Source: Fodinibius salipaludis
GTDB lineage: Bacteria; Bacteroidota; Rhodothermia; Balneolales; Balneolaceae
NCBI RefSeq assembly: GCF_002287075.1
Contig: NZ_NSKE01000007.1
Coordinates: 1 to 64,000, forward strand
DNA length: 64,000 bases
Direction: 5' to 3'
Shown here: positions 21,578-29,903 of the stretch, in pieces
How positions within the stretch are numbered: position 1 is the stretch's first letter
How the letters are laid out: every line of letters begins with the position of its first letter
Program-made: the position numbers and the translations under genes
The notes under the pieces: model-generated
Told to the model about the DNA's origin: nothing
Databases searched by the model: none
What the model saw: only the letters and a program-made list of their open reading frames with translations

Positions 21578-22174
21578 TCAATACAAATCACCCAGTACTA
21601 TTCTGGGATCGGGAAAAGTCTGCAGCGCCTCTTCCCTATTTTCGGGTGCTACCACGCCCGGCATATCGGCTTCTTGTGGATCTTCGACCGAAAGTTGAAA
21701 ATGTAGATGGGGCGCCCATCCTCCGTTCACTCCCTGACTTCCAAGGGTGGCTATTTTTTGTCCTTTTTTGATGGCTTCTCCAACCGAGACCATTTCCAGA
21801 GCTTCTTCAGATAAATGCCCATAAAGGGCGTAAAGAGGCGAATCATTCAGCTCATACTTAATGACAATCGTGGGTCCATAGTCTCCGGGCTGATCGTTAT
21901 TCTGAATATAAGCGACCTCTCCATCCCAAAATGAAAAGACCGGTGCCCCGGTCTGAGTCCAGATATCGATACCCATGTGTACATTACGCTCATTATGGAA
22001 CATCGATTCCAAATACATATTTGAGCGCTTTTCATTGTATTTACCAATCCCCCACTCTTTTGATCGGATAAAATCGGCATCATATCCCTGGCTAAAATCA
22101 AATAGATAAAGAGCATCCCTGTTATCGGGATAATCCATAACTTTGCCAAAATTATAATCAGAATAGGTATTCAT
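21578..22174 (-). CDS. M23/LytM-family metallopeptidase
   Basis: 198 residues with the zinc ligands of the LytM fold: HMGIDIW (His and Asp), YALYGHLS (His) and APHLHFQL (the HxH pair). All four ligands are in place, unlike the inactive EnvC/NlpD type. No signal peptide is visible, which is odd for an enzyme acting on peptidoglycan and may mean a cytoplasmic or non-classical location. It follows the racemase gene by 107 bp on the same strand and probably belongs to its transcription unit, fitting turnover of cell-wall peptides. Confidence 0.85.
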   Translation of the reverse strand: MNTYSDYNFGKVMDYPDNRDALYLFDFSQGYDADFIRSKEWGIGKYNEKRSNMYLESMFHNERNVHMGIDIWTQTGAPVFSFWDGEVAYIQNNDQPGDYGPTIVIKYELNDSPLYALYGHLSEEALEMVSVGEAIKKGQKIATLGSQGVNGGWAPHLHFQLSVEDPQEADMPGVVAPENREEALQTFPDPRIVLGDLY

Positions 22175-25412: not shown

Positions 25413-25769
25413 TTACCATAACTTACTTTTTGAACGACCTGAAACGGGTTGTGCTTTGGGGGATTCATCTTCTTTGACCTTAGCCCGATCTTTATCATTT
25501 AACTTGGATTTGGGCTCTTTCATATTCTTCTTTTCCGGCGAAGCGTTTTCTGAATCATCCAAATAGATAGCCCCCTCGTGATGATAACCTTTCTCCAGAT
25601 ATACAGTGGGGGCTTGTATATCTCCCTCAACTCGTCCATCTTCTTTAATTAAAATTGAAGACGTTGCTTTTAAATCACCAACAACTCTGCCTTCAACAAT
25701 GATACTTTTGCCAAAGACATTTCCTTGAAAAAAAGAAGATTTACTAATTAAAGTATCAGTATTGTTCAC
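25413..25769 (-). CDS. Bactofilin-like cytoskeletal protein
   Basis: 118 residues. Residues about 7-70 have the bactofilin pattern of short repeated beta-strands with Gly/Asp turns (GNVFGKSIIVEGRVVGDL, LIKEDGRVEGDI), expected to form a right-handed beta-helix that polymerises without nucleotides. The tail from about 71 is highly charged and unstructured (KDRAKVKEDESPKAQ) and ends in RSKSKLW. It is shorter than many bactofilins but has the core. The gene starts 21 bp after the stop of an actin-like gene, so the two form an operon and may make a shared structure. Confidence 0.85.
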   Translation of the reverse strand: MNNTDTLISKSSFFQGNVFGKSIIVEGRVVGDLKATSSILIKEDGRVEGDIQAPTVYLEKGYHHEGAIYLDDSENASPEKKNMKEPKSKLNDKDRAKVKEDESPKAQPVSGRSKSKLW

Positions 25770-25790: not shown

Positions 25791-26813
25791 TTATTCATCC
25801 AAAACAGCAATAAGTGTACTGGCATTACCCATATCAATACCTACCGGGGTACCTTCCCCCTCGAACTGCATCGCTGTATTCAGGCAATATCCCTTAACGG
25901 CCATCTGGTCGGGTTTGTCAGGTACTTCAACGCTTAAAATACCGTCATATTCTTCAGTGATCAGGTTCGTAAGCTCACTGAAATAGGCCCCACCACCAAC
26001 AAGATAAATCTTTGAACAGGTAGCAAAATCGGAATCCTGGAAAGAGTTAGCCAAAGCCGGACGGATAATATTTTCAAAGTATGACTTAAGCACTTTACGG
26101 CGGAGTGCAGTAAGATCTATCGAACGTTTATCAATATTAATCTTCCCATTTTGAAATGCTACGTTAAGCTGATGCTCTGTCTTAAAGCCAAGATAATGAT
26201 CTTTTTGCAGCTCTTCTTTCATCATATTTACAGCATATCTCATGCCGTGCGTACTGGTGGCAGTTCGGCGAATAATTCCGTTTGTAGTGCTAACTACTCC
26301 TTCCATGGAACCGTATCCGAGGCTCACCACAAAAAAGTCGTCTTCTTCCTGATAATCCCCATATCGCAATGATATTATGCTCCCTGCGATTTCAGGAATA
26401 ACATCTACATTGCGTAACTGAATAGTAGCTGACTGTTTGCCAGTCGCCCCGTTTGTAGCAAAAGTAGAACTATCATAAAGTACATCAAACGACTTTGTAA
26501 GTCGCTGCTTGGCCATATCACTGTGCTTGTGATACATCTCAAAAGGAAAGCCCATGGTCATTGAAAAATCGCTGCCCGCTTTTTCTTGAGCTAATAACAA
26601 CGCAGCTCGAAATAACACATCAAAATCCAATTCCCCGGGAGCTGTATTAATTAAGCGATGAGGAGATAGTCCCTCCTGCAGAGCAAGCTGGCCAATCATA
26701 TATGATTCATCGTTGTAGTCAATTTTTAGCCCACTTACCAAATCATCACTTACTCTACTCAAGTCTGTTCGTGTCGATTCATATACACTTGGAAATACTG
26801 ATATATCCATCAT
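25791..26813 (-). CDS. ParM-like actin ATPase, apparently circularly permuted
   Basis: 340 residues. Read in the usual order it has: a DISVFPSVYES start (3-13) that normally follows the phosphate-1 hairpin, IGQLAL (40-45), a phosphate-2-like VVSLGYGS (162-169, Ser where Asp is usual), and the adenosine motif YLVGGGAYFSE (270-280). The phosphate-1 motif VGIDMGNAST (324-333, Asp327) is at the extreme C-terminus, ending 7 residues later. No such motif precedes the start: an in-frame TAA lies 9 bp upstream of the first ATG. The order fits a circular permutation. It probably forms filaments; partners are the co-transcribed bactofilin and unknown cargo. Confidence 0.8.
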   Translation of the reverse strand: MMDISVFPSVYESTRTDLSRVSDDLVSGLKIDYNDESYMIGQLALQEGLSPHRLINTAPGELDFDVLFRAALLLAQEKAGSDFSMTMGFPFEMYHKHSDMAKQRLTKSFDVLYDSSTFATNGATGKQSATIQLRNVDVIPEIAGSIISLRYGDYQEEDDFFVVSLGYGSMEGVVSTTNGIIRRTATSTHGMRYAVNMMKEELQKDHYLGFKTEHQLNVAFQNGKINIDKRSIDLTALRRKVLKSYFENIIRPALANSFQDSDFATCSKIYLVGGGAYFSELTNLITEEYDGILSVEVPDKPDQMAVKGYCLNTAMQFEGEGTPVGIDMGNASTLIAVLDE

Positions 26814-29526: not shown

Positions 29527-29678
29527 CTCTTTTAAATAACTTTTACCGCGAAACTCAATATAATAAATGTATTTACCACACCTAATACCAGTCTACAGCA
29601 GATGTAATCCATTTTTCATTTTTTTAACAAGTAAGGGAAGAAAAATTGCTCACGAACAAACAGATAGGAAATAAAAAA

Positions 29679-29709
29679 AGCGACTTCCTGAACATCAGAA
29701 AGCCGCTTC
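29679..29709 (-). terminator. Terminator after the initiator tRNA
   Basis: On the minus strand a stem AGCGgCTTtCTGA/TCAGgAAGtCGCT is followed by seven T. It starts 8 bp past the tRNA 3' end. Confidence 0.8.
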
Positions 29710-29716
29710 TTGGTAG

Positions 29717-29789
<73 letters not shown>

Positions 29790-29903
29790 ATGTGAGTCGG
29801 TAATAATAAGGCTTGACATGGGTAATTGTCAATAGTAAATTCTAAATTCTTTCCCGGTTGAATTCCGATACATAAATTCCAATTAAATCCTATTAGGAGG
29901 GTT

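Follow-up and report, generated by a model that had tools for sequence, protein, structure and literature searches.

A ParM/ALP-like actin of Fodinibius salipaludis with its phosphate-1 motif at the C-terminus: a probable natural circular permutation beside a bactofilin gene

Described actins and the gene compared with them

The actin fold is among the oldest and most studied folds, and its motifs are regarded as having a fixed order. The ParM/Alp actins of plasmids and phages (PF17989, phrog_691), in which the partner of ParM is ParR, have their domains in common with the protein described here, and all 12 that we examined are of canonical order with an N-terminal phosphate-1 motif, while the phosphate-2 Asp is present in those aligned. 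In contrast, the candidate permuted actin has a C-terminal phosphate-1 motif, is without the phosphate-2 Asp, and is chromosomally encoded with a bactofilin gene as neighbour, whereas the ParM/Alp genes are plasmid or phage borne. MreB, which acts at the cell wall, shares the actin fold, and its phosphate-1 sequence (DLGTANTLI) is near the DMGNANTLI of permuted proteins, but its motif order is canonical and its profile-profile alignment with the permuted family was limited to 40 columns around the adenosine motif. The archaeal actin Ta0583 has the canonical motif order, and we know of no link between it and bactofilins. We take the role of CorM of Anabaena to be a non-plasmid one and, to our knowledge, no permutation of it has been described; a search of the literature on CorM returned nothing relevant. 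This ParM-type filament of a free-living bacterium (PDB 9rmi) has a partner named CorR. According to the accessible portion of PMC10945521, 226 species have adjacent genes for bactofilin and M23 peptidase, and the two form a morphogenetic module. A bactofilin is found in most of the permuted-actin loci as well, and an M23 peptidase in the cluster of L098, but no actin is named as a part of the module in 12 of the 36 places of that source. The preliminary description of this DNA knew of no natural permutation of the actin fold, and our literature search, with most subscription papers outside its reach and thus not proof of absence, likewise found none; in the accessible portion of PMC6695626, circular permutation concerns fluorescent proteins and not ParM.

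The gene was found in a stretch of 64,000 nucleotides from Fodinibius salipaludis (the window), and its features, together with the adjacent gene, are as follows.

25791..26813, minus strand: gene of the putative permuted ParM/ALP-like actin (open reading frame, 340 aa plus stop)
26784..26813, minus strand: new N-terminus (MMDISVFPSV, residues 1-10), corresponding to the strand next after the phosphate-1 hairpin in canonical ALPs, placed by the ALP_N start and the hhalign alignment
26391..26393, minus strand: codon of Glu141 (IPE), opposite the Gln of a canonical ALP
26307..26330, minus strand: phosphate-2 region VVSLGYGS, residues 162-169, with Ser164 at the canonical Asp position, opposite the Asp of VIDPG in a canonical ALP
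25980..26006, minus strand: adenosine motif YLVGGGAYF, residues 270-278
25803..25844, minus strand: C-terminal phosphate-1 motif VGIDMGNASTLIAV, residues 324-337, placed by sequence, invariant residues and the phosphate-1 profiles of four canonical families
25413..25769, minus strand: bactofilin gene, 118 aa, GTG start, the next gene, 21 bases past the actin stop (Pfam Bactofilin, 5.8e-11)

The actin coordinates agree with those given in the preliminary description, which had left the strand unnamed, and the in-frame TAA that it reported just 5' of the first ATG lies four codons upstream (TAA ATT CTT ATT ATG). A protein search showed a single copy in the source genome. The 340-aa protein matched the Pfam profiles ALP_N (7.1e-10; residues 6-143 against profile positions 20-147 of 148) and MreB-like_C (1.1e-6), and the phrog_691 profile of a partition protein in PHROGs (2e-22; residues 6-309 against 27-318 of 329). 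With 39.7 bits against a curated cut-off of 26.3, the window protein is a member of ALP_N (PF17989), while the g11-type relative L086 was matched by ALP_N in no form, native or rotated. Because the ALP_N and phrog_691 matches start at profile positions 20 and 27, respectively, the first 19 to 26 positions, which hold the phosphate-1 region, are missing at the N-terminus, and the hhalign alignment described below agrees with the earlier proposal that the first residues of this protein are the segment normally found after the phosphate-1 hairpin. The protein resembles the ParM/ALP actins and by sequence would descend with them, but it lacks both the phosphate-1 hairpin at the N-terminus and the phosphate-2 Asp, which are among the features that define them.

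The C-terminal phosphate-1 motif and rotation of the chain

As previously claimed, a phosphate-1 motif is located after the adenosine motif at the very end of the chain. The C-terminus of the protein reads PVGIDMGNASTLIAVLDE, in which VGIDMGNAST corresponds to residues 324-333. In an alignment of 28 permuted proteins, with identity to the window protein as low as 35%, residues G325, D327, G329, N330 and T333 were invariant; the phosphate-1 feature of the Actin/ASKHA proteins (GxDxG; G325, D327 and G329) is thus present in 28/28, but C-terminally. The N-terminal phosphate-1 hairpin that is a feature of ParM/ALP proteins is absent, the motif being C-terminal and the profile matches starting at 16-21. 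The mean column entropy of the 28 proteins was 0.79 over residues 324-334, compared to 1.55 overall. When whole open frames were inspected, a single GxDxGN motif was found near the C-terminus of each of the 36 complete proteins (from 34 genomes), its Asp being 13 to 30 residues from the protein end in 35 of them and 56 in one.

To place the motif by similarity, phosphate-1 profiles were built from the N-terminal 45 residues of canonical proteins. The profiles of ALP, MreB, FtsA and DnaK had their best match within the last 50 residues in 28, 26, 27 and 26 of the 28 permuted proteins, respectively, and never in the first 60 residues, with low scores (up to about 9 bits) and related rows. The majority of the FtsA and DnaK rows were picked by a phosphate-1 pattern within the first 40 residues, and the MreB profile took in two wrong-frame rows (L108 and L111), which were left out of the MreB set used for hhalign. 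In the reverse direction, a profile of the C-terminal segment was run against 32 canonical proteins, of which 25 were matched at the phosphate-1 position, 3 at another position and 4 not at all.

The preliminary description further stated that joining the C-terminus to the N-terminus restores the ordinary order. This was borne out when a 27-row profile of the family (trimmed at window residue 340 and without row L010, the N-terminus of which is cut by a contig end) was rotated and aligned by hhalign with 12 canonical plasmid and phage ALPs. The native order scored 160.3 (ALP columns 28-327), a cut at residues 314-324 raised the score to 179.6-179.7 (columns 8-327), and a cut at residue 330 or later brought it back to 159.5-159.7. 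Thirty shuffled C-terminal blocks gave a mean of 161.1 and a maximum of 164.9, and in the positive control, with canonical halves, the score was highest at zero rotation. The alignment runs through the junction, VGIDMGNASTLIAVLDE followed by MMDISVFPSV, with a two-residue gap, and the peak corresponds to a circular permutation, in which each element is present once and in rotated order. Similarly, when the C-terminal block was placed ahead of the N-terminus, the start of the Pfam ALP_N match shifted from 17-21 to 1 in three proteins, with a gain of 7.3 bits for the window protein, 3.7 for L022 and 8.1 for L094, and of 0 for a shuffled segment (two controls). Rotation produced no response in hhalign alignments with MreB and FtsA. 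In one Hsp70 chain, the N-terminus matched profile positions 316-338, followed by 98-179 and 249-288, all of them weakly (0.9, 11.0 and 4.7 bits).

We considered whether this is an ordinary ParM-like actin with a lost or mis-called N-terminus, carrying GIDMGN at its C-terminus by chance. Short glycine-rich motifs do arise by chance, and the HMMER version of the rotation scan had no peak at the cut, the four ALPs scoring 108.3 bits in native versus 104.8 bits in rotated order in a 15-protein panel. However, no GxDxG pattern occurs before the PS strand in the open frames of any of the 36 complete proteins, and the open frame ahead of this strand is short (up to 20 residues in 26 of them, up to 90 in all). 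The C-terminal motif is also invariant and in the same place in the 28 aligned proteins, the hhalign peak falls at this motif, and the occurrence of one motif in 36/36 complete homologues argues for more than chance. We therefore regard a chance motif as barely credible. Homologues with an N-terminal phosphate-1 motif, which had been named beforehand as the finding that would speak for a chance C-terminal copy, were sought and were absent in the sampled phylum (36/36 proteins).

Chain lengths around the predicted junction were also compared, using full open frames. The stretch that leads from the phosphate-1 Asp across the join to PS measures 18-26 residues in 29/36 permuted proteins, while the corresponding canonical length is 18-28 in the nine of twelve proteins that were measurable by a loose pattern. 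The other seven permuted proteins gave 27, 30, 34, 36, 38, 62 and 79; at 38 and 79 the pattern or the start Met used was one in the upstream leader, and the value of 62 comes from the protein with a 56-residue tail after the Asp. Overall, conservation, the Pfam and profile-profile rotations and the junction lengths support the initial proposal of a natural circular permutation, and from its sequence the gene product is very probably a ParM/ALP-type actin permuted in this way.

Nucleotide site, predicted fold and placement of the hairpin

The adenosine motif of the Actin/ASKHA proteins (GGG) is present as G273-G275 in 28/28, and MreB_Mbl gave a weak Pfam match over residues 269-309 (0.058). Glu141, likewise invariant in 28/28, sits where canonical actins have their catalytic Gln/Glu (actin Q137, ParM E148). 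The phosphate-2 Asp (DxGxGT) is missing from all 28 proteins, in which G166, G168 and the acidic E171 are invariant, and its position is filled by Ser in 25, Gly in 2 and Asn in 1, confirming and extending the replacement by Ser first noticed in the window protein (VVSLGYGS). Gly was seen in L034 and L038 and Asn in L029, and since these three relatives have Gly or Asn for Ser, it is the absence of Asp, rather than a requirement for Ser, that characterizes the position. Loss of this Asp with retention of Glu141 may lead to slow or altered hydrolysis and hence to more stable filaments, a suggestion from the residues present that we put forward tentatively.

To examine the fold, AlphaFold2 models were generated. 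With 3 sequences the mean pLDDT was 42.6, and after the addition of three distant canonical viral proteins (6 sequences) it was 55.7. In the 6-sequence model, residues 1-58 and 298-340, the C-terminal hairpin included, were below 50, and apart from these ends the ten-residue means from residue 61 to 300 ranged from 51 to 85. A Foldseek search with this low-confidence model (pLDDT 55.7) returned pCBH ParM (PDB 6ixw/6izr) first, followed by Ta0583 (PDB 2fsk/2fsj/2fsn; TM 0.53-0.59), other ParMs, CorM (rank 17) and MreB, with query TM of about 0.4-0.57 against ParM, Ta0583 and MreB. A profile built from 12 members of the permuted family also had pCBH ParM as its best PDB match (7e-7; query 5-275 against chain 27-316). 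The model is consistent with an actin fold for the core of the permuted protein, and the sequence profiles likewise favour this fold.

With regard to the relocated hairpin, it most likely lies in cis, in the same subunit, where it would complete the predicted ATP site. The distance from GY to the phosphate-1 Asp is 16-18 residues in 28/28 permuted proteins, and we infer the cis placement because this linker is about the sum of two canonical tails where these were measured: the tail after GY (6-9 residues in four of five measured proteins and 24 in the fifth, among twelve examined) and the tail before the phosphate-1 Asp (6-9 residues in 9/12; 12, 13 and 15 in the rest). A domain swap, with the C-terminal hairpin given to the next subunit and a two-subunit ATP site formed only in the assembly, could be accommodated by the variable stretch through which the hairpin is attached (entropy 2.25 for residues 310-321) and by AlphaFold2 models that do not place it in cis, at a confidence too low there to tell; the constant GY-to-Asp distance, near the summed canonical tails, instead fits a simple join within the chain, and we consider the swap very unlikely. 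If it were true, the composite ATP site would tie nucleotide binding directly to the assembly of the actin with a scaffold of bactofilin.

A further question is whether the protein polymerizes. FtsA- and PilM-like actins serve as adaptors, and a nucleotide-binding pseudo-actin that forms no polymer of its own could act as a regulator or adaptor of the bactofilin filament. The loss of the phosphate-2 Asp in 28/28 would suit such a protein, as would the assembly of bactofilins, which needs no nucleotide according to the accessible portion of PMC12448750. Against this, the nearest relatives in both sequence and fold are ParMs for which structures of filaments exist, and the phosphate-1 motif, the adenosine motif and Glu141 are invariant, and we judge a non-polymerizing protein unlikely, although it deserves more weight than a domain swap. 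Under the permuted-filament reading, the protein would polymerize with nucleotide, as its relatives do.

Distribution, neighbouring genes and proposed role

Homologues were found in 13/92 genomes of the family, 31/244 of the class and 23/394 sampled from the phylum, the union being 37 genomes. Three of these (G050, G051 and G482) have only fragments at contig ends, and the other 34 provided the 36 complete proteins, a set that leaves out the second copy of G510. The gene is patchy, being present in 4/12 genomes of the window's genus; relatives include those of Fodinibius halophilus (82%) and an uncultured Aliifodinibius (91%). Genus g32 includes three genomes with two permuted actins each, G220 (L137 and L038), G258 (L138 and L099) and G510 (L139 among them), with a bactofilin downstream of both copies in G220 and G258 and of the one examined in G510. 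Between the window gene and its 91% relative, a dN of 0.044 with a dS of 1.14 over the gene indicates purifying selection; taken by itself, the C-terminal stretch of 20 codons (dN 0.118, dS 0.35) is too short for selection to be judged.

A search of 296 phylum genomes with ALP_N gave 11 matches in 10 genomes. Since all of these start at profile position 16-21, no canonical-order ALP was seen among the ALP_N matches in these genomes. Among the phrog_691 matches listed, FtsA-, MreB- and DnaK-like proteins were found in every genome. In a tree of core regions (row L010 excluded), 27 permuted and 18 canonical proteins were split with a support of 0.997, which is consistent with a single permutation event.

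Of the two points that the preliminary description had proposed to check in relatives, the order is conserved (36/36 proteins, 34 genomes), but the gene does not always lie beside a bactofilin gene. In 28/38 loci (36 genomes), a same-strand bactofilin gene lies downstream, with -3 to 1209 bases between the open frames; the training set of the profile used consisted of seven genes from these loci, which match it by construction and pass Pfam independently. No bactofilin gene was found downstream in six g11 loci and three f6 loci within stretches of 1.4 to 6.4 kb, and one of the 38 loci is cut by a contig end. The loci of family f6 without bactofilin are L094, L027 and L028, and the gene next to the actin in L094 is one for a protein of 1178 aa that has sortilin-like repeats and a Por secretion tail.

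In L098, the gene order is M23 peptidase (Pfam, 1.4e-31), actin, TPR protein and bactofilin (Pfam, 2.9e-27), and inspection of the sequences suggested the same order in L097 and L101. By eye, actin-TPR-bactofilin is followed in these three loci by two small membrane-like genes and an ATP synthase subunit a-like gene. In the window, an M23 peptidase gene (198 aa, 21578-22174, minus strand; Pfam, 2e-18) is the fourth gene past the bactofilin gene on the same strand, and by eye a similar 197-198-aa gene also lies downstream in L083, L084 and L085. Elsewhere in the window, an open reading frame at 29616-29819 (minus strand), VEQLVARRAHNPEVGGSNPPPATT, overlaps a tRNA-Met gene (29716-29789, minus strand) and is probably spurious.

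The family names ALP_N and phrog_691 partition protein could point to a chromosomal DNA-partition actin that has kept the role of ParM. However, no ParR-like gene was recognized by eye among the neighbour genes listed, and a bactofilin gene is the next one downstream in most of the loci. Copies of the actin gene are located on contigs of 1.55 to 4.21 Mb, showing that it is chromosomal in those genomes. A plasmid collection contained no match over 80% of the query and one weak match, of canonical order, while a phage collection held no relative of the permuted actin and viral scans no permuted relative. Together, these results make a retained partition role highly improbable, and the chromosomal protein has probably moved from plasmid segregation to the cell envelope.

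Taken together, the best explanation, which we hold to be likely as a whole, is that a permuted actin, encoded on the chromosome, binds nucleotide, forms filaments and, together with bactofilin, has been recruited to the cell envelope. The ancestral chain would in effect have been cut at the turn that joins strand 2 to strand 3 in the phosphate-1 region (strands numbered as in ParM), so that the first beta hairpin, which carries phosphate-1, would now follow the last helix with every motif retained once per chain, and would fold back into its own subunit. Having left plasmid segregation for the envelope, the actin and the adjacent bactofilin, joined in some lineages by the M23 peptidase and the TPR protein, may place cell-wall remodelling. 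Gene order and the known bactofilin-M23 module make such a bactofilin-linked envelope role somewhat favoured, and by this analogy the permuted loci would add an actin to that module.

A permuted family conserved in several lineages of the phylum would mean that the actin fold tolerates new chain ends inside its first nucleotide-binding hairpin, and would serve as a natural experiment on the influence of chain ends on actin polymers. Annotation that seeks an N-terminal motif can miss or misjudge such actins. The family would also connect an actin with bactofilins.
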